DNA from: Symbiodinium sp. CCMP2592
Lineage: Eukaryota > Sar > Dinophyceae > Suessiales > Symbiodiniaceae
Length of the DNA: 64,000 nucleotides
Direction: 5' to 3'
Assembly: GCA_905221615.1 (NCBI GenBank)
Contig: CAJNDT010005834.1
Location: forward strand, 156,460 to 220,459
Shown here: positions 10,334 through 63,712 of the stretch, one piece after another
Numbering within the stretch: position 1 is the stretch's first letter
Layout: every line of letters starts with the position of its first letter
Translations under genes and position numbers: made by a program
Notes under the pieces: generated by a model
Database searches by the model: none
Told to the model about the DNA's origin: nothing
What the model saw: only the letters and a program-made list of their open reading frames with translations

Positions 10334-10660
10334 GTTAGCAATGACCATTTCCATTTTCCAACCATGCCCCACCCCCTAGCACCCAAATCATAACAACCTA
10401 TACCTCAACCCCCAATCCACCCAAGACCCATAGGTAGAACCCTTGGAAACCCCACCTGAAGAAGCCAAAACCATAACAACCTATACCCTAACCCTAACCT
10501 CACCAAAATTCCCATAGTAAGATCCACAATATAGAGCCATTAGAAGACCTATAGGCAACCACATAGAAAACCCTCACCCGAAACTCCATACAACAGTATC
10601 CCCATAGAAAATCCCATAACGCCCAGCCCGAAATCCCCAACCTTGAAGGTGGAAATGGTC
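10334..10660 (+). mobile_element. 300-bp TIR element, left copy
   Basis: Begins GTTAGCAATGACCATTTCC and ends GGAAATGGTC, giving a terminal inverted repeat around GACCATTTCC. It is the reverse complement of 29005-29302 along most of its length. No coding capacity, so it is a non-autonomous element or dispersed repeat. Confidence 0.75.
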
Positions 10661-10837
10661 TATCCTAATACTGACAAGATAACAAGAATAACGTTTATGG
10701 ATAAGGTTGCAACGTTCATGAAGGCAGCTGTTTTGGGAGCTATACCTACATCACACTTGTCGGGACGTTCCAGTTCATTCCAGTGCAACGTTCTATGGAG
10801 TCTTGTCTTTGCAGATAGCCTACTTGTCCAAATGACC

Positions 10838-11944
10838 ATGCTTCCGCATCATCGTGCCCTTTTCGCACTTGCCATAGTCTCCTGGACATCCAGCACGGCA
10901 ATGCTGGCGTTGTTACCAGCTCTCGCTGGCTACAGTGCACATTCCCTGCTGGGTCAAACGCGCGTTGGGTTGCCACAGCTGCAACGTGATGGATGCTTCT
11001 CCGGAAACATGCGCAGGTGGACTCGGACTCCGACATTCTCACCATACTGTTGGAAGTCCGTCGTGAGGAAAGACGGTTTGATAGCCTGCAGCGCACTCAA
11101 TGATGTGCCAAAGAGTTGGGACAAGTTTTTGGCAGTCTCAGCTGGCTTTAAACATGCCTGTGCCCTGCGGGCAGATGGTCGGCTCACCTGTTTCGGAGAC
11201 AATGAATATGGGCAGTGTGTTGTGCCAGCAGACTTGGGACCAGTTTTGGAAGTGTCAGCTGGTGCTTTGCATACGTGTGCAGTGCGGGCAGATGGTCGGC
11301 TCATCTGTTTCGGAGACGACAAACATGGGCAGTGTGGTGTGCCAGCAGGTTTGGGACCAGCTGTAGCAGTCTCAGCTGGCAATGGTCATACCTGCGCATT
11401 GCGGGCAGATGGTTGGCTCATCTGTTTCGGATACAATAACTCGGGACAGTGTGATGTGCCAGCAGATTTGGGACCAGTTTCAGCAGTGTCAGCTGGCGGT
11501 GCTCATACGTGTGCAGTGCGGGCAGATGGTCGGCTCATCTGTTTCGGAAACAATGAATATGGGCAGAGTGATGTGCCAGCAGATTTGGGACCAGTTTCAG
11601 CAGTGTCAGCTGGCCTTATGCATACCTGTGCTGTGCGGGCAGATGGTCGGCTCATCTGTTTCGGATTCAATTTCTTCGGGCAGTGTGGTGTGCCAGCAGA
11701 TTTGGGACCAGAATCAGCAGTCTCACCAGATGTGGGACCAGTTTCAGCAGTCTCAGCTGGCGAATGTCATACGTGTGCAGTGCAGGCAGATGGCCAGCTT
11801 ATCTGTTTCGGATGCGAGAGACTGAGAGTGTCGGGGCAGTGTGATGTGCCAGCAGATTTGGGACCAGTTTCAGCAGTGTTAGCTGGCGGTGGTCATACGT
11901 GCGCAGTGCAGGAAGATGGTCGGCTCATCTGTTTTGGATGTTGA
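10838..11944 (+). CDS. RCC1-like Cys-rich repeat protein
   Basis: The ATG at 10838 is chosen because the in-frame ATG at 10643 lies inside the upstream TIR element. The N terminus (MLPHHRALFALAIVSW, then a Leu/Ala-rich stretch) looks like a signal peptide or anchor. From about residue 90 there are seven repeats of about 39 residues with the core HTCAVRADGRLICFG...GQCDVPADLGPV. The repeats are near-identical 117-bp units on DNA. RCC1 repeats form beta-propellers that bind partners such as GTPases or chromatin. The Cys-rich variant is common in dinoflagellate proteomes, and its partner is unknown. The last repeat stops abruptly after ICFGC, so the C terminus may be truncated. Confidence 0.75.
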   Translation: MLPHHRALFALAIVSWTSSTAMLALLPALAGYSAHSLLGQTRVGLPQLQRDGCFSGNMRRWTRTPTFSPYCWKSVVRKDGLIACSALNDVPKSWDKFLAVSAGFKHACALRADGRLTCFGDNEYGQCVVPADLGPVLEVSAGALHTCAVRADGRLICFGDDKHGQCGVPAGLGPAVAVSAGNGHTCALRADGWLICFGYNNSGQCDVPADLGPVSAVSAGGAHTCAVRADGRLICFGNNEYGQSDVPADLGPVSAVSAGLMHTCAVRADGRLICFGFNFFGQCGVPADLGPESAVSPDVGPVSAVSAGECHTCAVQADGQLICFGCERLRVSGQCDVPADLGPVSAVLAGGGHTCAVQEDGRLICFGC

Positions 11945-12254
11945 GTGCCGAGGCGTGCCAAGGTGGCGTGGACCGGTATAATTCATTCACATATTATCGG
12001 CCTTGCCTGTCCAGGCCAAGACCAACCGTTCGGGGTTGCGGTTCTACAATATGTAATCTGGCCACCCGACTCTGTTGCATCCTTACACGTTCGGAGTGCT
12101 GTTTCTGAAAAAGTCTGAATGCGCCCTCGGGGGTGGGGGGGAGGGGGGGGGTCGCTTGTTGCAAGAAACGAAAACGTAACAGCAAAAGCACAGGCAGCAC
12201 CCATACAAGAACAAAAGAAACGCAGTTAAAGCAAGCAAGCACGAATAAAAGCAA

Positions 12255-12690
12255 CTATAAACAAAAGTGAGAAATCGAGTTACTCAACCTATAGGGTTTA
12301 GGATTGCCACAATCATAGCTATAGGGTTTAGGGTTGCTGCAGTCAGCATGATTAATGAAGAATGATATGGCTGTTGCTTGTAGTGAAAATACATACTTTA
12401 CATACTCTATAACTTCCTCGGCTTTCGTATTATAATGACCCTTCCAACCAACCAGCCAAACATCAAAACATCCGCACGGTTTTTTCTTTACTATAACTTC
12501 TTTGCTCATGTAAAGCCATTGAAGCTCGTAGCAGCAGTTTTGTAAAACTGTTTTTTCTAATTTCCTCTGTAACCTTTTCCATATCGGATAAACAGTTCAT
12601 GATAAGATACAACAAGCGACCGTGATATACACTGTGATACCTAAGACGTTCGCGGCCTGGATGGTTTCTGATCTTTACAAACTGCTTCAT
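12255..12690 (-). pseudogene. Unknown AT-rich viral gene, frameshifted
   Basis: Two overlapping minus-strand frames (starting MKQFVKIRNHPGRERLRYH and MSKEVIVKKKPCGCFDVW) appear to be one protein of about 130 residues, broken at an A run near 12475. Family unknown. The end near 12255 fades into TTTAGGG-bearing sequence, which marks the left limit of the island. Confidence 0.45.
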
Positions 12691-13030
12691 TGTCTTTCGC
12701 AGTTGGTAGTTTGACCTTTTGATTATGTTTTTGTTAATTTTAGCCAGTCCATATCTGTATCAATGTCGTAGTTGCGATGTAGTAAGTGACCTGTCCTTCT
12801 TGCACTTTGCTTAGCTTTGAAAGTATTTTGGTTTCATCAGAACCGACGATTGTTTCTATCTTTTTTTCATACACTTGTCGGACTTATCATATTCACATAC
12901 ACGATTACATGTATCAATGGGCAACTTGCTCTTTAACAACCTTGTGTTGTTCATCCCTTTGCACTTCCAGCAACTTTCAAACTGGAACATTTCACACTGT
13001 TATTTTGTGTAGGTATCATTTTTCATGATT
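12690..13030 (-). pseudogene. Cys-containing viral ORF remnant
   Basis: The minus strand reads CEMFQFESCWKCKGMN followed by more CxxC-like spacing, with stops and frameshifts. It may be a small zinc-binding protein remnant, possibly the N-terminal part of the gene downstream on the same strand. Confidence 0.3.
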
Positions 13031-13091
13031 AGTATTTAATTCGCAAGAATAATTCGCAAGGTTATCAAAGCTGGAACAATTCAAATCGTAA

Positions 13092-13863
13092 CTATTGCCT
13101 ATCATTGCCCTCAACTCTGTAATAATCTTGACCTAATTTATTTTCCATACTTTCTATTGTATAAATATTCTGTGACCAGTTTCCAACTCTTTCTTTTTCA
13201 TTGGGCTTTCGTTTCTTAAGAATTTTAACCTCATCGCCCACACCTAGTTCTGGACATATACGATTCTTCTTTCCCTTCATTGTTAAATTTAATTTTACTT
13301 TGAGTTGAACACTGGGTTTTCGGGCTTCTTTGGGGTAAATCCTGTTGCCGAGTGTTTCATCCTGTTATGGTATGTTAGTAGTATTTCAAATATGTAATCC
13401 GTCCATTGAATATTATCTTTTCCTTTTTTCTCATCTGCTTCAACTCTCCTATACAACAAATCTTTAAAAGTGCGGATGGCCCTCTCGCTAAAATTTGGGT
13501 GCGCCCTCGTTCTATGATGTTCTATGTTCTCATCCTTCAACTACTTTTATATTGCTTCCTTGTTCATTGCTCCCTCGTCGTCTGTATAAACTATTTCGGG
13601 TTTCTTTCCCATCTTGTTTAAACACTCAATCATTCCACTCGCCAAATCCTCTTCCTTTTTTCCTTTTATAGGCGCTACACACATAAACTTATCAAATACA
13701 TCAATCATTAGCATACCTACCCTAAACTTTTGTTCATCCAAATCGTTTATGAAAAACAAATCCATCTGATACTCGTAGGTGGAATGAGGGGCGACAAAAC
13801 TGTTTTGACCTACCGGCTTTCTTTTTTGCTCAACATTCTAAAAAACTCGTTAATATCGCCCAT
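13092..13863 (-). pseudogene. Polinton-type retroviral integrase, broken
   Basis: DDE integrase that would join element DNA to host DNA. From ATG at 13863 (MGDINEFFRML) the protein can be followed through frameshifts. First catalytic Asp is in LMIDVFDKF, the second in VYTDDEGAM and the Glu in FSERAIRTFK. A C-terminal SH3/chromo-like segment follows (GVGDEVKILKK...NIYTIESM). Spacing and the phrase ENIEHHRTRAHPNFSER match Polinton/virophage integrases. In-frame TAA and TAG lie near 13540, and frameshifts near 13290 and 13810. Length (about 257 codons) is near the catalytic core plus C domain. Confidence 0.8.
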
Positions 13864-14009
13864 TGTTATGGTTTTGTCCTTCTCCCTTGCTTCGCTAGTG
13901 TTCTAGATTTACTGCCAAACCCCGCTCTATCAAACTATACACCATTAATTATTTTCTGCTTCTCGTTCATGTAAATAAGTAACACAAAATAATGATTTAG
14001 TATAATTAG

Positions 14010-14331
14010 TTAAATCATCATTTTAAAAGAGATAAGCATAATCACTTTGTATGCATTCATATCGTATTTGGGAGCTCCGCGCTTCCTTCCACTAGGTTTC
14101 TTATCGGTCATGATTTCTGTAATTTGTGTAGGTGTCAAATTTTCCTCGCCTATATTTTTTTTTCTATGTATTCCTTAAGCTTCTTCTTTTGGTTGTGCCT
14201 TAAGCTTGCTTCGCGCTTCTTTCGCATAAACTGTTCGTCTTCTTTCCTTTTGTTATAATAAAGCCGTACAGTGCCAGTTGTTGCTTAATCTCGTCCATTG
14301 TCATATCCTCGGGACTTTTGAAATGTGTCAT
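14010..14331 (-). pseudogene. Small basic viral protein, frameshifted
   Basis: Starts MTHFKSPEDMTMDEIKQQLA. After two frameshifts at A-rich runs it continues through a Lys/Arg-rich helix and ends with GRKRGAPKYDMNAYKVIM. About 105 residues. Family unknown. It lies divergently from the polymerase gene, sharing the 14332-14444 upstream region. Confidence 0.4.
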
Positions 14332-14444
14332 ATAACTATACTATATATTTATACTATTTCTATAAATAAGTTTCTAAATATATTCCGCAAATCTTTAAAA
14401 AACATTTTAAAATAGATTCAATTTATATTGTAATTATATTGTAT

Positions 14445-17400
14445 ATGAGCAAAAATATTGAGCGTAACACGAGAGCACTACAAACAACCTGCGACAACCA
14501 CAAAAATCGTCTCACGCAAGGCACCAGAACCAAGTTACAAAAGCTAATTAATTGTCACGAAGATCATAAAATAGCGCAATTCACCACCGCAGATAATTTA
14601 ATCAGACAGTTCATAACCGCAAAAACTGACAAACAGAAGACAAAGGCAAACAACGCACACAAAAAAAATCACGACAAACACCACGATAAAGAACCGCTCG
14701 GGCAACGAATGCTGGAAGCAAAGAAGGACAACAAAAAGCGAAATACAGCAAGTATCTACTCTATAGATGTAATGTTTTATAAGCTAAAACTAGATAAAGA
14801 CGATGCTATTAAAACCGCCGTCAAGGACAGTAAAGGCCGGTCGTTAATTTATTTCTGGAGAGAACCCAAAACCGCAAATGTAAAAACAACAAAATACATA
14901 GAGGACTTGGTAGGAAAGCGTATTTTTCGGTATGAGAAGGAAGCTAAAGCTACATTTAATAAGTTAATGGACTCTTTCAACACAGACCCAGCTTCAGAAA
15001 AAGGATTTGTTTCACACAGAGCAGTATATGGAATGTATTCAAGTAAAAAGCCATGAGCGGGCAAATGGTGATATATAGAGTTCAAGCCAGAACATGAGAA
15101 ACTAACAAATGCAGCTAATGTACGTATGTTTAACATCTACATTCAAACGCCTTTTTTTACCCCGAGTTTGAAACCTTTAAGGAAGCAAAAAATGTAAAGC
15201 ATTACAAAGAAAACGAATGTTGGTTCAACACCATAACCGATTGGTATAAGGATACACTAATGGGCGAAAAAAGACGAGAGAAGAACAGATTAACAAAATA
15301 AAATATGCTGAAACTGATAAATGAAACCGAAGAGGACTTCAAAACGAACGGGGCATCAATACAAGATGTGGTGCCGGTGTTTGAACACTACGGCATTCAA
15401 GTAAGGATATTTAACTCCTTCATAAAGCCCATTTTCAAATATTCACCTACTAAATACAACCACCATATACCAACATTATACGCCCTAGTTAAGAATAATC
15501 ATATCTACACAGCAAACGACAACCTACAGATGTTACGACAGATGGTGGCAATCCGTGAAAATCAAGATGTATCGGTTAAGGCATCCGTAGATTACCACAT
15601 AAACTAAAACAACGAACCTATTGAATGTAAAATGATACAGTCCTTCAACGACCTTAAGAAATTCAGAGAGAAAGACAATTATACGCTAATTTAGGATGGT
15701 AATGATTTAACCCAGTTGTTTTACGAAAGCAAGATGGCGGGCTACGAGCCGCAGGTGAGATTTACTGGCTGTATCGTTCCGATTTGTATTTCAAATTTTA
15801 CATTAAGAAGAAGAGCATTAGATACAGGATTAAAACACAAAATTTAGTGACGAGCTCAGTGGATGGAACTGTAACAGCAAGGACGGAGCAGATTTATAAC
15901 AAAATGTCTAAAGCAATGTATGAATTCAACAAAGCATTTTTAAATCCCTTGCATAAATCTTATTATAACCAAACCGATATACAAATTCTTAAGGAATGCC
16001 CCACAATACCGCCAGTGGGAGAACTAAATAAATTCTACAAGGTGTTTAACCAAAGAGCCGAGAAATACGACAAATACGCATTTATGTCCGAAACAACCAC
16101 CGAAATAGATGTAAGAAAAGCTTATACACCCACGCATTCAACCAAATTACCGAAATCCCCGCGTTTAATCAGTTTGATATATGGAAGCATTTTAGTTACA
16201 AACACCACGACTACAGCAAGTTTCACGAACTGACTTTGTTTTTAGTGAAGCCTAAGGAGCAAGCATTGTTTTTTAATAAGACGCATTGTTTAGTATATGG
16301 TAGGTTTCTAAAGCACTACGCCGATAAATGCGAAATCCTATATTACAAAGAGCCTTCTATAGTGTATAAGGTGAATTACGCGAAACTTATTAAACATTTA
16401 TGGGCAACCGAAATATCAGACCATAATCCAGAAGACGCTAAAATCAAAAAGCTTATAGCAAATGTAAATTTTGGATTGTTAGAGAAGGGAACGAACAAGT
16501 CTTCTGAAAGCTTTGCCGTTGACGGTTTAAGGGAAGCGTTGTACTATCAACAAGAAGTGGGAGGCAAGATTAATAAAATCACCAGAAACGACGAAAACGA
16601 CAAGGAATTGGACAGAAAGCATTACTGCTTAACGGTGACCGATAGAGTGGCATTAAAAAACGGGCATACTTACATAAAGGAGTTACTGCTTCAAATACAC
16701 AATCATAAAAAATACAAGAGGATTATAATAAACTGATAAGGAATGGTGTTGATGTATGGAGTATTAAAACCGATGCCTTTGTAAGTAGGCACGAGCACTT
16801 AAGCAAGGCAAAGAAAGCGATAACATTTAACAATAATATCGGAGGATGGAGACACGAGAAGGGTAAATCAATAATCCCACCAACAGAGCAACACAAAATG
16901 AAGGAGACTACATTACCAACTATACCAGAATATGCCAATGAAACACTACAAATTAAAGACGAGTGGGACACCGAAAGCATAGCAAAACAAATAATTCAAA
17001 AGACCCCACTTATTATAAGAAGTAAATACGCGGGTGGTGGTAAATCGCATATAGCGAAGCATTTCAGCAAGTTAGGTTATAATACATTGTTTGTAGTCCC
17101 CCAGAACAGTTTATCGATGATGCAACCACTACGAATAAATTCTTTGCTATTCCGGTTGGCGATGGGGACAAACTGCCAGAGTTTGACCATAGCAAGTTTA
17201 ATTGTATTGTGTTTGACGAGATTTATCTGAACAGCTTATACATCCTAAATAGAATACGAGAGTTTGTAAAACATAACCCTGAAAAATTACAATAGGAGCG
17301 GGAGACGTTAAGCAACTGCTCCCGATTGAAGACCTAACCAATACTAGAAAGCCTGATGAATACGCCGACGACTGTATCAACCAAACATTTCAATACAACA

Positions 17401-18268
17401 TGATGCTTAAGATTTGTAAGAGGCGAAAGATGACCCAAAAGCGAACGAGAACCGCAACGCATTAAACCGTATGTATGACGACATGTGGATAAACCGCATT
17501 CCTATAACCGAATTTGTAAGGAAATATATTAAATCGACTGCTGACCTAATGGCATCCGAGAAGAACATAGCATGCACCAACATAAGGTGTAAAAATGTAT
17601 CTAACTATATTAGAAACAATCTAGGTCAAAGCGATAAATACGAAGTAGGGGAAACGCTTCTATGTCGGAAGTATAAGAAGGTTGGAAGCACTAAATTTAC
17701 TGTTAATTATCGGTTTAAAACAGTTAATGTATCCGGCAATGTAGTTACCTTAGAGAACATAAAATCAAAATATAGATACACCACCGACATTTACACTTTA
17801 GATAATAACTTTAGATACGACTACTGCGTCACTTGCCATTCCGCGCAGGGGGCATCAATCAAAGGCAAAGTTACTATCCACGAATGGGAGAAGTCATATT
17901 TAGTAAGCCGTGAGTGGATGTCGTGCGCCTTAACGAGAAGCCCTGATTTTAATGATGTTTTGTTTTATGAAGGTGCTACTAACAACGGAGAGCTAAACGA
18001 AGAAAATCTACACCGATATTTGAACAATAAAATTAAGAATTACAAATTTCAGGATGAAGCAAAGAATAGAAAGATAGATGAGACAAAGGTTGTTGATGTG
18101 GAATGGTTTATGAAGAGGTTAAACGGAAATTGTGAGAATTGCGGTTGTCGTTTTGAGTTTGACACGAGTAGCATATATTTAACTTGTCAGCGCTTGAACA
18201 ATGAAGGCCCGCATTACAAAGACAACTGCGAGGCTTGGTGTAAATTATGTAACTGCTCGGCAAGATAA
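14445..18268 (+). pseudogene. Family B DNA polymerase-SF1 helicase fusion, broken
   Basis: One long protein spread over several frames. An N-terminal region of unknown role (14445-15056) is followed by the exonuclease/TPR area (NECWFNTITDWYK; VKNNHIYTANDN). Polymerase motif A is EIDVRKAYT near 16105. The B-like motif is KLIANVNFGLLEKGTNK near 16450, and the C-like motif is WSIKTDAFV near 16770. The same frame runs into an SF1 helicase with Walker A AGGGKS (about 17030), Walker B VFDEIY, GAGDVKQLLPI, and motif V/VI CVTCHSAQGASIKG...CALTRS (about 17830). The end is Cys-rich (CENCGCRF...CKLCNCS). Role: genome replication of the element. At least seven frameshifts or nonsense codons. Confidence 0.75.
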
Positions 18269-18304
18269 ACATTAAAGATTGTTAATGTTTATCTTACTTT
18301 TTTG

Positions 18305-18589
18305 TTATATATTTAAATTAGGAAACTTGCTTTCAATGTTTCTAGTTGCTTGTTGTAAAGTTGGTTTTTCCCAAAGAGCCCACCTACTCCAGAAACCAGC
18401 AGTTTTGTGGTCTTTCCAGTCTTCATTTTCACGGTGTCTATCAATGTAGTTTTTCTCTCTTTCTTCGTCCTTATGCTTTGTAAAATCACTATAACCAGTA
18501 GCACCAAATGAAACTGTCTTTTTCCCATCAATGACAGCATCATATTTCCTTCCATCTTTACTTGACTTTTTAATAATTATATCAACCAT
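18305..18589 (-). CDS. Small DUF5754-like viral protein
   Basis: Intact 94-codon ORF starting MVDIIIKKSSKDGRKYDAVI. The segment KKTVSFGATGYSDFTKHKDE followed by AGFWSRWALWEKPTLQQA is, from memory, the pattern of a small uncharacterised family shared by giant viruses and relatives (DUF5754). Function unknown. Intact although its neighbours are broken, which fits its short length. Convergent with the polymerase-helicase gene. Confidence 0.6.
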   Translation of the reverse strand: MVDIIIKKSSKDGRKYDAVIDGKKTVSFGATGYSDFTKHKDEEREKNYIDRHRENEDWKDHKTAGFWSRWALWEKPTLQQATRNIESKFPNLNI

Positions 18590-18690
18590 TACTATATCTT
18601 AGATATCATCGCGAACCTGAGCTAATTGTTATGGGTCGGCTACTTCTTGAGCTTCTAGAACTAACATACTGAACAGTTCTGCTTGAAGAA

Positions 18691-19299
18691 CTACTTGAAA
18701 CATTTATGTATAGGTATATCTTCTTCATCGACATATTCTATAGTTGGGCTTCTTGAACTATTTACACTAATAGGGGCACTTTCAACTGGTAATACAGCAT
18801 TTATACTAGTTGTTGATGATGATGATGAACTTGATTGTATAGGTGCTTCACTCTTTTTATTTGGCATAGGGTCATTACTTCCTCTTGCGCTACTAGCGTG
18901 GCTTGTTGGCCGTGATCTTGGTAAATCAATTTCAACCTCTTCAAACAAACTATTAAATGACCTTCTCACTAATGATTGTTGTCTTTCTTTCTCTTCCGAT
19001 GCTTCGCTCTCTTGGCGTGAATATTCGCTTTCGGCTTGTTCTTCTTCTTTCACACCCTGGTCTTCCATAGCAGTTTTAGCACTTTCGCTTTTTGGTGTAG
19101 AAGTCTTGTTGAATCTGTCTGTTTGCGTTCCTTTCTCTGGATTTTCATTGAACAATATTGTATTCTTGTCATATTTATCCAAATCAAAATCATCCATATC
19201 TAGATCATCTAGTAGCATTCCTTGTTGTGTTGTTCTTTCCCTTTCTCGTAATATTCTTAATCTTCTTGTTCCTGCCTCCCTTATGGACCCAGATCTCAA
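18691..19299 (-). CDS. Acidic, Ser-rich low-complexity protein
   Basis: 202 codons, uninterrupted. Contains LLDDLDMDDFDLDKYDKN near the N terminus, a Glu/Ser-rich middle and a Ser run near residue 155. It is probably disordered. I do not recognise it. It is transcribed divergently from the fibre gene, with about 80 bp between them. Confidence 0.55.
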   Translation of the reverse strand: MRSGSIREAGTRRLRILRERERTTQQGMLLDDLDMDDFDLDKYDKNTILFNENPEKGTQTDRFNKTSTPKSESAKTAMEDQGVKEEEQAESEYSRQESEASEEKERQQSLVRRSFNSLFEEVEIDLPRSRPTSHASSARGSNDPMPNKKSEAPIQSSSSSSSTTSINAVLPVESAPISVNSSRSPTIEYVDEEDIPIHKCFK

Positions 19300-19339
19300 A
19301 AACTTATGTTAAGCATAGTAGGAATTTTTCATTCTAAAT

Positions 19340-20190
19340 TAGAAACCGAACAATGCCAGTAATACGGGGATAGGGACACTAATGGAATTACAGAATACAA
19401 ATACAGCGGAAATTAGAGTAGGTAGTGCTACTAATGCTCGTATGGGTGTCGGTGCTAATCCAGTGTTAGGTTTTCATTTAACGGTAGGTGGAACAAGTCA
19501 ATTTGGATGGGTGCGAATTAATCAAAATTTGACAGTTGTAGGCAAGTATTGGGTAGATACAAACGGAAGAATTTTTCAAAGAGCGGATGCTTCTAACTCG
19601 TTAAATATCGTTTCAACAGGACGATTAATTTTTCATTACAGACAGAGCAACAGACCCTACAACTGGCACTATTGCTTTACAATTAGATGATACTAACGGA
19701 ATTACAATAAACAGAGCCGTTGTTAATAATCAGATTTTCAACAGCATAGGAAGCATTACAGCAGAAGCAAGTTTAAATGTATGGGGCGAGTTATTATTTC
19801 AACATTCATCAGGAATAAAGGAAACATTAACGGTAGTGATTATGATGTAGATATGAGAAACGGAGACACAGACCGAAGCATTAATATGATTGTAGGAACA
19901 ATCGGAAGCACACCCCAAATATCTATTAGTGAAGCATCGGTCAGTTTATTAGGTAATCTAGATATAACGCACTCAACAGTTACAACAAGTGAAAGGGTCA
20001 AAATGGACAATCCCGACAGTGACGGATTAATATTTTTTAGTATAAGCGGTGCTAATATATGCGAAATTTCAAGTGCGGGATTACACGTCAATGGAACTGC
20101 TACTGAAAAATCAGACGCTAGACTAAAACAAGACATAAAAAGATACAAACAGTAAAGCATGTTACGATATAGTTATATACATTAAACCGA
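19340..20190 (+). pseudogene. Fibre protein with S74 chaperone domain, 5' part
   Basis: Repetitive beta-rich sequence (VGSATNARMGVGANPVLG; DPTTGTIALQLDDTNGITI; ISISEASVSLLGNLDI) in three frames leads to KSDARLKQDIK. This is the start of a peptidase S74 intramolecular chaperone, in which the conserved Ser-Asp marks the self-cleavage site. S74 domains trimerise tail or fibre proteins and then release themselves. The frame is lost at an A run near 20140, and the gene is cut by the transposon at 20191. The remainder lies at 25349-25610. The likely role is virion attachment, by inference. Frameshifts also occur near 19640 and 19810. Confidence 0.7.
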
Positions 20191-42417: not shown

Positions 42418-43022
42418 AGATGGCTGTGTGCTTTGTCGCTGAAAGCTCTAGTTCGAGAGCTCATATGTCCTACGGGCGAAACACGGATGCATGTAATTAA
42501 CGTTGAGCTGCAACGCTTATGCTGTCCGCTGCTCATGCATTCATCAAAGCACGTTGTCCCGACGTTGATCATGTTTCCGTCTCTTCTTGCTGAAAACTGC
42601 GCATGCAAAGCCCAAAACCCTAAACCTTAAACCGGCATACACATGCCTTCGATAAGACCTTCGTGCTCTGGGCGAGGCAGCTGAACACGATGATTTAAGA
42701 CGTATCCTGGTCAAGAAATACGAGCCTTTTCGAACCCTCGTAATGATAAAATAATGTAGGAACTTAGGAACCTGATTAAGAAACCCTGGGCCTATAACAC
42801 CAGAATAGTAGGATTCAAGAAAGGAACCGCAATAAAGGTCCTCTTAATCAGGTTCCCACATCAGCCTTTGCCTAAGTGGTCTGTAGTCTAAAGCCTTTTT
42901 CGAACCTAGTCTGCAAGCTTGCAGCAGCCGTGACTTGAACCCTTGCGAGTAAATACAAGCTTCCAGCTCTACATCCGGAACCCTAAGCCCTAAACCCTAT
43001 ACCTTGAACCCGAAACCCTACA

Positions 43023-43121
43023 GGGAACTCCAGAAAGTTGGAATATGGTTTCATGGTAGGATACCCTATAATTTACCATAGAAGGGTTAGGATAATCATA
43101 TTCCAACTTTCTGGCTTTTAC
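43023..43121 (+). mobile_element. Palindromic element, family A
   Basis: GGGAACTCCAGAAAGTTGG ... CCAACTTTCTGGCTTTTAC. Six copies in the window: also 45202-45300, 45355-45477, 51441-51540 (inverted), 60475-60572 and 63159-63252 (inverted). Confidence 0.85.
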
Positions 43122-43570
43122 CCTATATAGATTTTAGCAGCCTGATGGACCCCTACACCATAAGCCCTAAACCCGGAAACCCCATACAGAGCCAGATACA
43201 CCCTTAAACCCCAAAGCCAGAAACCCGCACCATAAAAAACAGACTCCCAGAGCTCATTCCCTAAGGGCCCAAGTAGTCTTTATTTATATGGTTATTGGTA
43301 CCCAGAAGGCCCCAAAGTCCTAGAACAAGGAGTACTTGGACCCTTCAAAAAATTTGGATTTGGAGTATCACACTTTAACAGCTTTTTTTTGAACAAGTTT
43401 GTCCTTAAAGGATCCATTATGAAGTAAAGGTGTATGCCTTTTTCACCCTGGTTACTTAAAAGCGCACCCTAAACCCTAAACCAATTCGCTTGGTCAGGTG
43501 CTGGTGAGTTCGAGCTGGCAGTTCATCTACTGGGTCCATGGCCTTGGTTTCTGATGGCCGGGACTGGGTT

Positions 43571-43703
43571 CTTGGAGGGTCGGGGGACTTAGTAAATAGT
43601 TATTTTAGAGACTTATAAGTATCATAACCCCCATTTCGGGTCTCTATTAGGGTACTTACACGTCTACTTACTACCTAGTTACTAAGTCCCCCGACCCTCC
43701 AAG
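43571..43703. mobile_element. Palindromic element, family E-like
   Basis: CTTGGAGGGTCGGGGGACTT ... AAGTCCCCCGACCCTCCAAG, nearly perfect 20-bp arms. Confidence 0.8.
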
Positions 43704-43715
43704 TTCTTGTTAAGG

Positions 43716-43836
43716 GTCTACAGTAGAAGCCCAACAGTTGGAAACCCAACAGCCTCAATCCTTGAGAGTAATGTGTATAGGGAATCCCAGCTCTATTTGT
43801 CCTTAATCAGGTTTCCAACTTTATGGGGTTTACTGT
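43716..43836. mobile_element. Palindromic element, family G
   Basis: ACAGTAGAAGCCCAACAGTT ... TATGGGGTTTACTGTAG. A second copy at 46092-46197. Confidence 0.65.
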
Positions 43837-44013: not shown

Positions 44014-47000
44014 GGAAATGACCGGGATCACCCAACCACTGCAGAACACTGGTGGAAAGCCCTCCTCCAGGTTGAGGAGCATCAAGAACAATGTGGATGC
44101 CAGTATATGAAGGCCTTGAAAGAAAGGGAGATTAGTGATCATTGGTCTGCATTTGTCTTTAAAGGGATCTCATAGTCTTCATTGAGAGGTAAGTAATGGC
44201 GATACAACCCCGACGAACACAACTACTGTGCCCAGGCAACCTTCCTGCTTTGCTGGCTGTCGGGGCCTGTGTTTCTGCGACGACGGTGTTCGGATGTAGA
44301 CTTCGGGTCTATAAGTCTATAATGGTTCTACCCTACTAAACTATAAGCCGCAGTTGGGTGTTAGGGTCTGTGGGTTGGGTTTTATTCGGGGTCAGGGTTC
44401 ATGGCTTAAGGTCTAGATGGGTGAAGGCAGCCATCAGTGGTACATAATGGTACCTGGGCTTGAGGGGTTTAGGGTTTTAGGGTCAGAGAAGTGGCAGGTG
44501 TTTCGCAAAGCTATTTCGGACAATTTCAGGGTGTGGCTTATTAATGTAGGGGCCTAAATAATTACTTGTACTATTTTGGGGGTTCCTGATTATAGATAAC
44601 CCTGGTCAAATATTAAGGCTCCTATACTAGCTTCCTGACGAAGACCTTCTGCTCACAGAGACGCCCAGGACCCTCCTTGCACCCCCAAATAGGGGGTATA
44701 TGGTCCCAAATAGCGGGTACTTAGGGTTTCATAGAGGGTAGATGGAGGGTCCAGGGCTGTTCAGCTTCGTGACAAGTGTGACAGAAACGGCCTGGACTCA
44801 CGGTTTCTTCACAAACCCAAAGGCTCCATGTACCTTTATAGTAGATGCTTAAGCCTTAGAGGGGTCCCTATATAGGTACTTTAAGGCCGAGGTATATACT
44901 ATATGGGTACATGGAGCTTTAGGGGATTGAGCAGGGGAAACCCCCAACTTTAAGCGTTAGAACTTTTGGCATGAGGGCAAGGATATTGGGACGCCCGCAT
45001 CGCGTCCCGCGGCACCCTCCACTCCAGCGGCAGGATCGAGGCCAGCGCCTCGACGCAAGCCAGCACCTCCTCAGCCCATCAAGCCTTCTGAGTGTTGGGG
45101 TTCCGGCGGTTTCACTGCCGAGGAGTGGGATGAGTGGATGACATCGCCTGCGCCTGAAGGAATGGGAGGAGGAATGCCACCTTGCCAAGTTGACCGCTAT
45201 AGGAAACTCCAGAAAGTTGGAATATGGTTTCAGGGTAGGATACCTTATAATTTACCATAAAGGGTTTAGGATAATCATATTCCAACTTTCTGGCTTTTAC
45301 TTTTCCGTGAACAAGGCCGGCACCCACTGGAGCTTCCGCGCCCAAGGTTCTAAAGGGAACTCCAGAAAGTTGGAATATGGATTAATGGTAGGATCCCCTA
45401 TAATTTAGGATTAAGGGTACCCTATAATTTACCTTGAAGGGGTTAGGATAATGATATTCCAACTTTCTGGCTTCTACTCTACGGGCCAGACAGGAGTGAA
45501 AGCTGCTTCTCCTGCTGCCCCGGACCTGCACAGCCTGGTGCAGGAAGCGGTTCGCGAAGCACGGTTTAGGGTTTAGGGTTTAGGGTTGGCAGCCCTTCAA
45601 AAGGAAAGCGTGACTCATGAGTTGTTGAAGGACTCCGACTTCAATTCGCCGGGTTCGGATGATGTTCGCAGCTTGTTCAGCCGCAGACGGCCGCTCATTG
45701 TTGTGGCTGCCTCCTCTTGGTTTTCCGGAGAGCCTCGTATCCCTTAATCATGGAATATACCCTAAATTATAGTAGGATCCCTGATATGATTCAAGTAGTA
45801 TTCCTTAATTAAGGGATATTATTGGAGTCTCTGGGTTTCCTTACTATGGTTATTGCAGGATTTGTATCATCAACTGTGGTCGGTCGCATAACCGTTTAAC
45901 CCTGAACACCCCGATGCCTTCGCTACTAACTCTAAGCCCTAAGCACTAGACCCTAGGACTGCGCCAAAATGGACCAATCCTTGAACTGTAACAAGTACAT
46001 AACTTAACCTTGGAGCTCCGGTTACCTAAATAGCAGGTTGCTGCGGTCTATGACTATGAGAGTCTATAATATGTAGTAAACCGTAAACCGCATAAAGCTG
46101 GAAACCGGATTAAGGCCAAATAGTGATGGGATTCCCTATACCGTACTTTTACGGATTGAGGCTATTGGGTTTCCAAATTTTGGGCTTCTACTGTATGTAG
46201 CTAGTAACCCACTACTTAGGTAACTGGAGCTGTTGGGCAAGCTCAACTTGGAGGATCATGGGACTTAGTAAGTGGGGTTGGGTTATAAGTATTTATAAGT
46301 ATAGTTACCTCAATTATCATCCTAGTTACTAAGTCCCATGAACCTTTAAGAACTTGAACACATCCAGCCCGGAAGCTGGGTTCTGAGCGTCCTGGCGGGC
46401 TCCGGTTGCAGACGTTTGGGGACTTGGAGCTTTCATTCCCTAAGAGCTTCGATCCCACCGACGACCTGAAACTCGGTTGAGTGTTTAGGGTTTAGGGTTT
46501 AGGGTTTAGGGTTTATGGATTCGAGTAGGTGTTCGATGAATTAAGGGATTAGCAGGACAAATGGGAGGTAAGAACGCCCAAGTTGGGATCTGACTTGCAA
46601 GCGTGCTACCGGGATAAGCGGAATGCTCGTTTCCCCTCCATGCCAGCCTGACATCGGACCTCTAATCATGAACCTTTGAGGCAGAGATGTGCGAACATGC
46701 CGTCGCGTACGCGTGCCATCTGGCACGGCGACAGTTCTTGTATTTGATGAGATTTTCTCACTCCGTTCCCGGCAAGTTCGCTGCGCTGGTGAGCGACACC
46801 ACGTCGGTCAGGCAAAGCTGCTTGGACCAGTTGTCCTCGTGGTGGAAGTGCCTGGAAGCAGCAGCAGCTTGGGTTAAAGCGGTTAGTTTAGGAGTTCCGA
46901 TGCATTGCTTGGGCACAGACGTTTGGCCGACCTACTAGGTCCTCCGATCCTCCCAAAACCCTCAGCCCTAAACCCCGAAATCCTAAACCCCTGCATCCCT

Positions 47001-47192
47001 AAGCCCCTAAACCTTAAACCCCTAAATCCCAAATTGCCCAGACCCCTAAGCCCTAAACCCCGAATCCCTATAGATCTCTTTAAAGGAACCCTACATATAT
47101 AAACCCTAAACCTTAAACCCCTAAATCCCAAATTCCCTAGACCCCCTAAACCCTAAACCCCCAAATCCCTATAGACCTTTTGAAAGGAACCC

Positions 47193-47228
<36 letters not shown>

Positions 47229-47390
47229 CTAAACCTTAAACCCCTAAAGCCCAAATTCCCTAGACCCCCTAAACCCTAATCCCCCAAATCCCTATAGATC
47301 TCTTTAATGGAACCCTAAACCCTCAACTGCCAGTAACTTCATCCCGCCGCAGGGTTTTCCCGGTGCTCATGGAGTATGAGGCCCCCCGGG
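44014..47390 (+). CDS. Host gene of 11 exons with introner introns
   Basis: Exons that join in one frame: 44014-44154 (TTAEHWWKALLQVEEHQEQ), 44489-44530 (WQVFRKAISDNFR), 44961-45188 (IGTPASRPAAPSTP ... GFTAEEWDEWMTSP), 45316-45346 (AGTHWSFRAQ), 45492-45563 (APDLHSLVQEAVREA), 45609-45736 (SDFNSPGSDDVRSLFSRRRP), 46351-46379, 46412-46475 (FGDLELSFPKSFDPTDDLKL), 46685-46872 (RQFLYLMRFSHSVPGKFAAL), 46919-46938 and 47353-47390 (VFPVLMEYEAPRGPG). Donors are GT, acceptors AG. Only the last donor is unclear (possibly GA). Introns contain families M, B, A, A, then D plus G plus E. Two introns would be very short (45 and 32 nt). Protein unrecognised, with a Pro-rich low-complexity segment. Start and end are missing. 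Confidence 0.55.
44549..44626. mobile_element. Palindromic element, family M (in intron)
   Basis: TAATGTAGGGGCCTAAATAA start with an AGGCTCCTATA end. Relatives at 33546-33655, 37420-37607, 41353-41455, 50583-50681 and 53521-53630. Confidence 0.55.
44818..44920. mobile_element. Palindromic element, family B (in intron)
   Basis: CCAAAGGCTCCATGTACC ... GGTACATGGAGCTTT, inside the inferred intron 44531-44960. Confidence 0.8.
45202..45300 (+). mobile_element. Family A introner in intron 45189-45315
   Basis: The palindrome makes up about 80 percent of the inferred intron. The donor GTTGAC lies 13 bp before it and the acceptor AACAAG 15 bp after it. Exon frame is kept (phase 0). Confidence 0.75.
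45355..45477 (+). mobile_element. Family A introner in intron 45347-45491
   Basis: A second copy of the same family only 31 coding bases after the first intron. The centre carries a short internal duplication (CCCTATAATTTA twice). Donor AAG|GTTCTAAAG, acceptor CAGACAG|G. Confidence 0.75.
45564..45608 (+). repeat. Telomere-like heptamers as a possible 45-nt intron
   Basis: GTTTAGGG repeated about three times, then CAAAAGGAAAG, between two coding stretches whose phases match only if this segment is removed. Confidence 0.4.
45736..46350. mobile_element. Intron built from D, H, G and E elements
   Basis: Family D (45736-45836) starts at the donor GTATCCC. It is followed by a partial H arm (45837-45881), CCCTAAA words, a G element (46092-46197) and an E element (46248-46350) whose last bases CTTTAAG form the acceptor. 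Confidence 0.6.
46483..46514. repeat. Interstitial telomere-like array
   Basis: Four perfect TTTAGGG units in a row, inside the inferred intron 46476-46684. Confidence 0.9.
47193..47226. repeat. TA microsatellite
   Basis: Pure TA run between two near-identical CCCTAAA-rich stretches, which are themselves a tandem duplication (about 47036-47300). Confidence 0.9.
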
Positions 47391-47408
47391 GGCCAGGAAA
47401 GCCCCTAT

Positions 47409-47544
47409 AAGGCTCCATGTACCCATATGGTATATACCTAGGCCTTAAAGTATCTATATAACCTTAAACCCTCTAAACCCGAAACCCCTAAACCCTAAAT
47501 CCCTTTAAGGCTTAAGAATCTACCATAAAGGTACATGGAGCCTT
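47409..47544. mobile_element. Family B element with telomere-like insert
   Basis: Normal B arms, but the centre is expanded by about 45 bp of CCCTAAA-like sequence (47460-47508). Confidence 0.7.
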
Positions 47545-48750
47545 TGGGAGCCAGCGATCCCACTATCCTCTAATTCCGGAATATAGCTTCTAGGGTTTCT
47601 TAAGGGGTTCCTTAAAAGGGATCTCTAGGGGTTCTATAAGGGAACTAAGGAAGGTAGCTTAGATTATGGTAGGATCCCTTATTAAATCTGACTGTGGTCC
47701 TTAATTGAAGCCTCCCGGGCCCCAGGAAGGCTTGAGAGGAAGACTTCCGCGGATCTCGGGCTTGAGGGGGTGTAGGGTCTTGGGGTTGAGGGTTTGGGGT
47801 GTAGGTTTTAGGGTTGAGGGTCCAGGGTGTAGGGGGTTGAGGGTCTAGGGTGTAGGGTTTGGGGTTGAGGGTCTAGGGGGCTCAGGGTTTGGGGCCTTTA
47901 GGGTTTTGGGTCTGGGGTTTTGGGTTAAGGGCTTCGAGGGGTGTAGGGTAGAAGACGACTGAAGCGGATCTCGGCTTTCCTCAGGGACTAAGACTAGGTA
48001 GGGCTTTGGGACATTTTACAATTTCCCTTATTGGGCTTAAGAGGATCTTGTTTGCTAATATTTTTCAAAGGCTTTAAAAGCCCTACCTAGAAGAGTTTGT
48101 TTCCTAGGGTTGAAGGTCCGAGGTGCTGACTTTCAGGATGCCATTTCTCACTGGACCGCTGGGTGCAATTCTGGTTTAGGGGGTTAGGGTTTTTAGGGGT
48201 TTAGGTTTTAGGGGTTTTAGGGTTTTGGGGGGTTTAGGTTTTGGGGGTTTAGGGTTTTTGGGGGTTTAGGTTTTAGGGGTTTTAGGGTTTTTGGGGGTTT
48301 AGGGTTTTGCAGGGTTTAGGGTTGTTAGTGTAGGAATTCTGCAAGCTCAGCTACTTGAAGGACTGTGGGACGTAGTCGCTGGGGCTATAAACAAGGTAGC
48401 CGTGACTTACAGCGACTTATAACTTATAACCCAATGAAGCTACTTCGCTGACTATGTCCCATGATCCTCCAAGTACCCAAAAAGAAGGGTTCCAAATTAT
48501 AAAAGCCCGATATACACAGTATATACTTATGTAGAGGGGTTCCAGTCTAGGAGCTTGAAGATATGTAGATACGTGGATCCTTATATATACCCTAACCCCT
48601 AAGCTTTATGGTACCCTGATAGAACCAGTACCCCTGTAGAAACCCTCAAGAGACTCGTATATATACATATCTATATATATATATATATATAAACATCTAA
48701 ACCCTAAACCAAAAAGATTCCCTTACCGGTCTGTGCATCTGGAGTGAGAG
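47545..48750. other. TTTAGGG-rich DNA and palindromes
   Basis: Dense TTTAGGG/TTTTGGGG words at 47760-47950 and 48175-48320, an element with GTAGGGCTTT ... AAAAGCCCTAC ends (48000-48090), and an E element (48353-48474). Confidence 0.55.
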
Positions 48751-50502: not shown

Positions 50503-51440
50503 TGAGTTCCTGAGCGCCCCAAACTAGGCAACATATATAGTGACCCCACACCTATAACAGACTCCTATGCTGCATACAATAATAGGGCCTGACTAAAGTT
50601 ACCAATACTGTTATTTTGCCAGGCTCCTTCTTACAGTACAATATACCTCGAAACCCTATTCTAATTCTTAAGGCCCCAATGGAACCGGCCCGCAAGGTGT
50701 CCTATGCACTCATATCCCTAAGGCTCTAAGGGCTCAGATTCCTAAGGCTCTACGGATTCAGACTTTGCGGCTCTTGGGCCCAAAGACCGTACCGGAGAAG
50801 GCTCTACCTTACTACGATATGGTAGGCTAGTCGTCGTAGAAAAGTTTAACCTGTCGTTACTGAAATTACTTTCCATAGCGCTAGTGGGCAAGTGCAGATC
50901 CTCGGAGGGTTCTAGTGAGGGGCTTCTCGCCCTGGTCATCTGAGGCTCGTGCTTTGTTGAAGAGGTAGGGTCAATAAGCAGTTGTAAAGGAATCTTATTC
51001 TGGTCTCTGATAGGGTCCGGTTTCGGTTTGTTGAAAAAAATTGGCATGAGAAAGACTTCAAGTATGTGGGCCGTAAGAAAGACCCTCCAATCGCTAAGTG
51101 GGAGTGCAGGAGTTAACCGCCCATGTTGAACTGTAGAAACTCTACACCTGACATGGCTGAGACCCTGTATATGAGTAGTTCTCTAAATTAGGGTCCCGTC
51201 TTGGGTGGTTCTCAAATTAGAGCCCCTTCTTAGGTTCCCGAAATGGTACGGCACCCTCTAGAAAAAGTAGACTTGATTTAGAGAACCACCTACATCCTGA
51301 AGGGCCAAGCCCTCATCAGTTGTTCTACATTTATATGCCGTTTGCCTCGACGCTCCAACTGTATGTCTTTGTAGCCCCTAGTGATTAATCTAGTAGTTTC
51401 CATGAGGACTAAGAGACATCCGTAAAGCCCTAAACTAGAA

Positions 51441-51540
51441 GCCAGAAAGTTGGAGCATCATTATCCTCATTCCCTGAAGGTAAAGTAGAGGAAATCCTAG
51501 CACTAATCATCCTAAACTCATGTTCCAACTTTCTGGGGTT
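51441..51540 (-). mobile_element. Palindromic element, family A, inverted
   Basis: GCCAGAAAGTTGGAGCATC ... TGTTCCAACTTTCTGGGGTT. More diverged than the other five copies. Confidence 0.75.
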
Positions 51541-51927
51541 CACTATACTACTGCCTCAATCCCGACTCCTCGAAACCCACAAGCCACCAAGGTGCGCGGG
51601 CTACCTTGTTTGCGCCGGTTTACTCGTGCTCTGGCTAGTTTTAGGCCGGGGCGTGCACTCACCATGCTCTGACGTGCAGAGTGGCTCCAGGGCTTGAAGC
51701 TGAAAACCCCAAACTCCCAACTCTAATCCCACAGACCCTAATCCTGAACTCCTATCCCGGCCGAGCTTTGGTTTGGCAAGAAGCCAAGCGTGCAATACCG
51801 GCAACACACCCAAGTACTTACTTCTAGAACCTGAGCAACACCCTACTTATCAAGCGGTAGTCTGCCGAATTCCTACTCCGCAGACCCTAAAGCCAAAACC
51901 TGAACCCTAAACCCAAGCGTCTTGCAG

Positions 51928-59943: not shown

Positions 59944-60474
59944 GTATGCCAGAACCGCAACCCGAGATCTTGTACAGCTTTGTTGCTGGGTTCCATTGGT
60001 TGTGTGAGCCAGCACCCCCTCGAAAGCTGAAAGCCCACTTAAGCCCAGCAAGACCTGCCTTTTCAGGGCTACTTATTACGGCGTTCTGTTTGCATGTCCT
60101 CGAAAAAGGTAGGCTTTCCTAGCCGTTTGAAGCCTAAAGCCTAAACCGACCCTAATTCCTAAACCCCTAAACAAACCCTCTCAAGCCTAAAACCCTGAGA
60201 CGCTAAATACCCTAAGGCAGCGGAGCGTTCAGTTTTGGGACCCATCCCTGGAGAGAGCCTTTGCATTGCTCCAGCAGACGATGGAGGCATGCGCTGGGGT
60301 TTGGGTTTTTTTAGGGTTCGGGGTTTGGGGGTTAAGGTTAATTAAGGTGCTTGTCATTAATTTAGGAATTCGGTTTAAGGGTTCCGAGTTGTTGGTAGAT
60401 TTCAGGGTCGGGGACTCGGCTCAACAGGGCTGCAAGTCTAGGTCTGAGCAGGGTTGGCGGAATCGGGGTAATAA

Positions 60475-60572
60475 AGGGAACTCCAGAAAGTTGGAATATG
60501 GTTTCAGGGTAGGATACCCTATAAGTTACCATAAAGAGCTTAGGATAATCATATTCCAACTTTTTGGCCTTT
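60475..60572 (+). mobile_element. Palindromic element, family A
   Basis: AGGGAACTCCAGAAAGTTGG ... TTCCAACTTTTTGGCC. Confidence 0.8.
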
Positions 60573-60775
60573 GCTTTAGGGCTTCGTAAACCTCGAACCC
60601 CAAACCTACATGCAGTCCTGCAACCCCTACGTGACGACGTCAACTCGAAGGCCCTTACCCATCTCTGCATCCCCCCTGACAAAAGCTGTGGATGAGAATA
60701 CCACAAACAGCTATCCGTTTGCCCTTAGTGTTCCGAAAACATCTCTAGACACTACATAGGTTATTATGTCTGGGG

Positions 60776-62575: not shown

Positions 62576-63158
62576 ATCATGACCTGCAGAGCTGATAGCT
62601 TGCTCTGCACCTTGACCCTGTCGGCCCATTTGCCTAAACTGTATAATTATCCTGAGGCCTCCAAGGGGTTCCTGTACATTGACTGCAGCGCCAAAGTAAG
62701 TACATACCAGACATGGGCCTGATAAAGAGTCTGACGCCCATGTGACCTTGCTAATTAGCAGGCAGCCCTCGAAGCCCGTCCGGAGCTCAGATGCTCACCC
62801 TAAACCCCCTAAACCCTACGCCCTGTTGCTGTCTTTGTGCGTTTGCTTCCGCGGGTCGTCGGCCGCGAGGGCGGGTTAGTCGCGAAGAGCTGCTTTTGGC
62901 TTTCCTCAACGTGTGAATCCTGGACCATGAAGCCCAACGTGTACCGGGGTACCATAAGCCCTCCCTGTGGCCCACAAATCCTAACCTTCCAAGGAACTCT
63001 ATACAGAATCACAGTGATCAACCCCTGTAAACGGAGGGTTTTTGGGCTATACTAGGTATCGATGTCGCATGATGTTTACCTTCCCTTTTTGTTGAATATA
63101 GAGCCCTAATTCGCAATAACCTCGGGGACTGTTGAAATCGACACGTAGAAAAGTAAAA

Positions 63159-63252
63159 GCCAGAAAGTTGGAATATGATTATCCTAAACCCTTTATGGTC
63201 AAATTATAGGGTCTCCTAGCCTGAAACCATATTCCAACTTTCTGGAGTTCCC
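63159..63252 (-). mobile_element. Palindromic element, family A, inverted
   Basis: GCCAGAAAGTTGGAATATG ... CATATTCCAACTTTCTGG. The arms match perfectly over at least 17 bp. Confidence 0.85.
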
Positions 63253-63712
63253 TTTATGGGTATGGACCCTGGACTGGTGGCAGCCTCCTGCTTCGGATCC
63301 AAAGGGTCCTAGGTACTGCTATGGGGGGATGCTTCCCCAAATTATATTCATAATTCCTTTCCTAGAAGCCCTACTTCTTGCCATTTAGGACGTTTTGGGG
63401 AAGAACCCGCAGCAGGTTCATGAGACATCATAAGTAAGTAGACTGGCTACAATTGATCGTAGTAGTCCGTGCGTATAATGATTTATACTTCGAGTTGGGG
63501 GGGGGGGTATGAAATTTATGACCGCAAATGTTTCAAAGAACCTTCATAGCATTTCCAGCCATGGTAGCCTAACAACTCTCACGATAAACCCTGAGCCCTC
63601 AACCGGGGCTTTGGGCTCCGGGTCTTTCCCCGGTTGCGGGTTTGCAAACACATTGCAAAGCTTGAAATCCGATGGCTCCAAAGGCAGGGAGCCCTAAAGC
63701 CTACACTGGGGT

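Follow-up and report, generated by a model that had tools for sequence, protein, structure and literature searches.

An unoccupied target site for a likely introner in repeat-rich DNA of Symbiodinium sp. CCMP2592

Introners and miniature transposons in dinoflagellates

Introners, transposon-like elements that make introns, are already in print for dinoflagellates. Family 1 of Symbiodinium microadriaticum is described as having terminal inverted repeats and a 4-base pair (bp) target duplication, with the 3' splice site lying in the element and the 5' splice site in the duplication (Gozashti et al. 2022, PMC9860276). PMC11453091 summarizes several families of transposon-like elements that make introns in Polarella glacialis and other dinoflagellates. 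The introner elements described for Amoebophrya carry inverted repeats and show direct repeats of 3-5 nucleotides (nt) at exon-intron borders; they were defined among non-canonical introns (Farhat et al. 2021, PMC7789003), and for canonical introns a similar layout is given at 1% and 15%. Here, we analyzed a 64,000-nt window of the Symbiodinium sp. CCMP2592 genome (contig C4972:156460-220459), in which an earlier note had placed an eleven-exon gene with palindromic introns at positions 44014-47390, corresponding to C4972:200473-203849. We compare that interval with a gene on contig C4915 that carries a 112-nt palindrome, designated E1. Roy et al. (2023) also reportedly studied dinoflagellate introners, including those of Polarella glacialis. 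Miniature inverted-repeat transposable elements (MITEs) with TA duplications are of the Stowaway/Tc1-mariner type.

E1 has the same anatomy as introner family 1 of S. microadriaticum; the likeness is one of anatomy, and E1 splicing is predicted. With the Amoebophrya elements it has in common inverted repeats and direct repeats at the borders, although E1 gives GT-AG ends. Two palindrome families of the window, A and B, differ from S. microadriaticum family 1 in showing 2-bp rather than 4-bp duplications. They are palindromes of ~100-140 nt with no coding capacity and 2-bp duplications (often TA), and are likened to TA-duplicating MITEs by these features alone. The genome recalls that of Polarella glacialis in having several transposon-like families in a dinoflagellate, a likeness of description and not of sequence. 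Overall, E1 and the palindrome families of the window seem to be further members of already known element kinds.

We consider the interval, with a probability of about 0.7, to be repeat-rich dinoflagellate DNA that contains at least one decayed gene fragment and several MITE families, rather than a proven eleven-exon gene. MITEs would have inserted both within and outside genes, and the apparent exons would be the GC-richer, stop-poor gaps between elements.

A gene-derived fragment and its E1-bearing relative

The fragment at 46608-46922 (Table 1) differs from its relative on C4915 by 7 substitutions in 311 aligned bases and by 5 gap positions, two C4915 insertions being left out of the count. 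The frame is open in the C4915 copy; relative to it, the window fragment has a stop codon (TGA, 46649-46651), lacks 1 nt near 46675 and has an insertion of 4 nt at 46881-46884, and its frame is broken. At the place of the window's GTCG, C4915 reads GTCG-[CTTGGCG...GCCAAG]-GTCG, in which E1, with its inverted ends, stands between two copies of the target (C4915:177435-177554; L034:4936-5055). The empty and filled sites differ exactly by the element and one duplication, and GT...AG removal of E1 from the C4915 copy would recreate the window sequence. Just upstream of E1, C4915 holds a second palindrome (CTACTATTTGCTTAAG...CTTAAGCAAATAGTAG; L034:5242-5357) with an ATAA duplication, which is absent from the window copy and has a relative in L022 (84% over 102 nt). 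Outside 46608-46922, the C4915 gene region had no match in the interval below an E value of 0.003, which rules out other window stretches as exons of that gene.

We propose that, after the fragment and the C4915 copy split, E1 entered the latter at GTCG. The duplicated GTCG would supply the GT of a 5' splice site and the E1 end GCCAAG the AG, and splicing out E1 would restore the old message unchanged. E1 would be mobilized by a cut-and-paste process using a transposase encoded elsewhere, and splicing is predicted to use the GT of the duplication and the AG of the element. E1 was presumably gained in C4915 rather than lost from the window, and the window locus is probably not expressed. The window holds the unfilled site of a likely introner and not the introner-filled gene that had been proposed.

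The earlier note had seen in this interval the pattern of introners making introns. Palindromic elements do make intron-like insertions in this genome, E1 being the best case, and that part of the claim stands; at the window locus itself the pattern is unsupported. The proposed gene is unfit as an example of introner activity, for which the C4915/window pair serves better: a clean pair of sites, empty in the window and filled in C4915, takes the place of an unproven multi-intron gene model. From such empty/filled pairs, limits can be set on the age of an intron-like insertion, and it can be seen how a transposon makes a 5' splice site out of the target duplication. Separately, the 4-nt insertion of the window fragment (GGTT before AGTTTAGG) is a possible transposon excision footprint.

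The E1 family across the genome

Exact E1 5' ends occur 1008 times in the genome, and the reversed control does not occur (0). A search for the whole element returned 2098 first-look candidates. Of these, 40 were scored, with identities of 94-100%; in 28 the match covers exactly the 112 element positions, and the rest come within a few bases. In this first sample, which consists of the best-scored copies and is not random, the element is 112 nt long in 39/40 copies and is flanked by exact 4-bp duplications in 31/40, so that target duplications accompany the terminal inverted repeats. Genome-wide, the duplication starts with GT in 115 cases and with TG in 43 (p = 9e-9), the TG count being a composition control only. 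Within the first sample, the 4-mers start with GT in 6/40 copies and end with AC, the mirror arrangement, in 1/40.

The flanks of each copy were joined and read for open frames, with N taken as a stop. In the first sample, the sense frame is open for at least 380 nt in 2/4 exact-GT copies and 0/36 others (p = 0.008), and for at least 270 nt in 3/4 and 0/36, respectively; antisense frames are also open in 3/4 exact-GT copies and 2/36 others. Counting N as open gives p = 4e-4; on that count three GT copies are fully open, of which one contains an N. The joined flanks of one GT copy resemble ADP-ribosylglycohydrolase (E value 1e-5; 25.8 bits, just below the cut-off of 26.2). Those of another contain RCC1 repeats (22.5 bits; cut-off 22), and removal of the element recreates the motif ILGDGSVVTW.

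A second sample took 40 further copies in list order, of which 34 could be parsed (16/20 GT, 18/20 other), several at odd lengths (93-168 nt). Exact duplications were found in 21 of the 34 (11/16 GT, 10/18 other). Sense frames of at least 270 nt occur in 3/16 GT copies and 1/18 others, the latter without a Pfam match, and the corresponding antisense counts are 5/16 and 1/18. One of the three open GT copies shows RCC1 at the cut-off and one shows ubiquitin and ankyrin below it; the third (L093) has no Pfam match, and its parse, at 93 nt between repetitive flanks, is doubtful. The second sample is weaker, and most of its GT copies are not in recognizable exons. Coding frames that are split by E1 and close on GT...AG removal were found for some copies only, namely the ADP-ribosylglycohydrolase copy and the two RCC1 copies. 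RCC1/HERC- and ankyrin-type proteins are present in the genome. Random 400-nt stretches contain an open frame of at least 300 nt in 97/500 cases (95th percentile ~399 nt), so open frames by themselves are weak evidence, and the case depends on the named domains and on the C4915/window pair.

E1 copies also tend to share a strand with their neighbors. Among the first 100 listed places, adjacent copies on the same contig lie on the same strand in 45/50 pairs, or in 23/26 when contig C80, with 24/25 listed copies on the minus strand, is left out; for listed GT copies the count is 17/19. Most sampled copies lie outside recognizable exons despite this coherence. We tentatively suggest, while holding it doubtful, that E1 introners are laid down or retained in one orientation across long chromosome blocks. 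The source may be transcription-coupled, strand-directed insertion or antisense purging in the one-way gene arrays of dinoflagellates. Local duplication could also produce it and does occur, as two copies of the first sample, L065 and L066, share 512 identical nt; this one duplicated pair lowers the probability that we attach to a single orientation. If true, intron gain would be biased before selection on splicing acts. In a family of this size, the excess of GT and the shared orientation of neighbors could allow selection on new introns to be measured.

The proposed gene and competing readings of the interval

The palindromes claimed for the interval exist: two belong to family A, and B-, C- and E-type elements lie elsewhere within it (Table 1). 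The same families occur inside and outside the proposed gene, with more A copies at 51431-51547 (diverged), 60472-60578 and 63149-63256. Family A has many similar copies in the genome, and the best 20 candidates scored all matched at 92-100%. TA stands on both sides of some copies, including the one at 45351-45481 and one nested in a family E element (L023), where one extra TA was read by hand; many copies have it on one side only. For family B, the flanking pairs are TA, TT or CA. A general duplication rule for family A was sought and none emerged. By their flanks, A and B seem to be distinct families of miniature transposons that make duplications of 2 bp.

For coherence of frame, we used a dynamic programme that chains at most 11 exons in a single frame and maximizes their total length, allowing only GT-AG introns of 50-900 nt and exons of at least 25 nt. 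The interval yields 1656 nt on the plus strand and 1686 nt on the minus strand. Dinucleotide shuffles (n = 100) gave a mean of 1680 nt (standard deviation 135), with 52/100 reaching at least 1656 nt; 17 other window stretches, on either strand, gave 1464-2397 nt, and the C4915 gene region 2682 and 2826 nt. As shuffles and other stretches match the chain length, a frame-keeping chain is what such DNA yields anyway, and frame-keeping is ruled out as proof of a gene. The earlier note had found eleven coding stretches that keep one frame only after splicing; the best such chain of the interval is at chance level, and neither strand is favored. No family A element coincides with an intron of a verified gene in the interval. 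This control is a warning that little weight can be given to gene models drawn by eye in DNA of this kind, even when they keep a consistent frame.

The strongest competitor is a working or recently working plus strand gene, in which two A inserts would be spliced through co-opted cryptic GT and AG sites of the exons at a cost of 7 and 6 codons. Two family A introns 31 coding bases apart had been claimed without splice coordinates, and we could reconstruct that spacing with introns at 45189-45315 (127 nt) and 45347-45493 (147 nt). Both have GT-AG ends, the cost of each is divisible by three when the inserts are taken, by hand count, as 106 and 129 nt, and co-option of both splice sites is described for Florenciella (PMC9860276). 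In-frame pairs of a GT within 40 nt upstream and an AG within 40 nt downstream are, however, common, being found at 45/60 family A copy/strand combinations, and a TA-flanked model for copy 1 removes 105 nt and loses the favored frame. The A elements are ruled out as exact introns of a plus strand gene, since the plus strand element end has no AG; their GT...AG ends lie on the strand opposite the proposed gene. If they are introners, they would thus serve a minus strand gene, itself without better evidence.

The coding-like plus strand stretches that speak for this gene fared unevenly. By DNA comparison, no second copy of the stretch at 44950-45196 exists in the genome, and a joined 93-amino acid (aa) reading of the stretches within 45307-45737 has no relative other than itself better than an E value of 2.5; neither has a convincing second genome copy, as far as these comparisons indicate. 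The TTTAGGG tract places an in-frame TAG between stretches. A protein search with a 350-aa join found nothing at an E value of 1 or better among the 7993 candidates sharing most words, Pfam on the joined stretches gave nothing above the cut-off, protein matches L030-L033 were weak and uninformative, and Rfam and tRNA scans were likewise uninformative. We regard the plus strand gene as unlikely.

Several observations nevertheless weigh against repeat-rich DNA with a decayed fragment. Some plus strand stretches seem coding by eye, and codon scores, from a small training set (1673 codons) and with mixed results, rank the proposed frame first of six at 45478-45562, at 45588-45737 and, with one stop in the frame, at 46354-46476; at 44985-45196 and 45301-45349 it does not rank first. 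By hand, removal of A copy 2 preserves the codon-favored frame. The stretch at 44017-44166 weakly matches (39% over 46 aa, E value 0.49) long open frames on C307 and C927 (L076 and L077), which are closely alike (463 and 537 aa); one of these was scanned with Pfam and had no match. In the fragment, the stop and the deletion are avoidable if the exon began further downstream. Repeat cover is 0.28 and 0.43 in the two 2-kilobase (kb) bins containing the interval, which places them among the richest of 28-64 kb, where other bins range from 0.07 to 0.42. The interval may contain a lineage-specific gene.

A second alternative is that the window fragment lost an E1 intron, by precise excision or through a spliced RNA copy, so that its empty site would not be ancestral. 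The fragment breaks off 11 nt before the point where the exon probably starts, and retroposed genes are known in dinoflagellates; yet those 11 nt of putative intron are retained, and the second palindrome is also missing, with one ATAA left. As two exact losses would be needed, loss seems less likely than two insertions, and we consider it improbable.

A minus strand gene is very improbable; in it, a 49-nt exon at 45301-45349 would lie between two introns that nearly coincide with the A elements (GTAAAAG...CTATAG and GTAGAAG...CCCTTTAG). Both A copies have GT and AG ends on that strand and its chain is as long as that of the plus strand, but this chain too does no better than chance, TTTAA or TTTAT and not AG stands at the end of several other A copies there, 101 scanned of the 245 open frames listed beside A copies had no Pfam match at an E value of 0.001, and the minus strand peptides seem, by eye, rich in R, W and C.

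Table 1. Features in and around the interval at 44014-47390 (window positions)
Feature	Position	Strand	Remark
Gene-derived fragment	46608..46922	+	304/316 columns identical to C4915 gene part
GTCG, empty target site of E1	46803..46806	+	E1 present in C4915 copy
ATAA, empty target site of second palindrome	46614..46617	+	Palindrome present in C4915 copy
Proposed eleven-exon gene interval	44014..47390	+	Exon chain at chance level
31-nt 'exon' between two A elements	45316..45346	+	Assuming introns 45189-45315 and 45347-45493
Family A palindrome, copy 1	45198..45304	-	On minus strand, GTAAAAG near start, end CTATAG
Family A palindrome, copy 2	45351..45481	-	TA at 45351-45352 and 45480-45481; on minus strand, GTAGAAG near start, end CCCTTTAG
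Family A palindrome	43019..43125	-	Outside interval
Family C palindrome	44816..44924		GGCTCCATGTACC...GGTACATGGAGC
TTTAGGG tract (telomere-like)	45563..45587		Near two GCA copies; breaks otherwise open plus strand frame
Family E palindrome	45738..45836		
Family A-prime element	46080..46195	-	GTTGGAAACC type
Family B palindrome	46243..46350		TTGGAGGATCATGGG...
Family C palindrome	47408..47548		Just outside interval
Family B palindrome	43571..43703		Outside interval
Family A-prime element	43719..43836	+	Outside interval

Elsewhere in the window, a block at 12001-20000 is AT-richer (GC content 0.36-0.39) and contains several long plus strand open frames; Pfam found no match in the five that were scanned. 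A 466-aa open frame with RCC1 repeats lies on the plus strand at 10544-11944. Telomere-like TTTAGGG/CCCTAAA tracts are many and are scattered through 28-64 kb. In the 1.098-Gb assembly as a whole, the dinoflagellate spliced-leader sequence has 429 exact occurrences and its reversed control 0.

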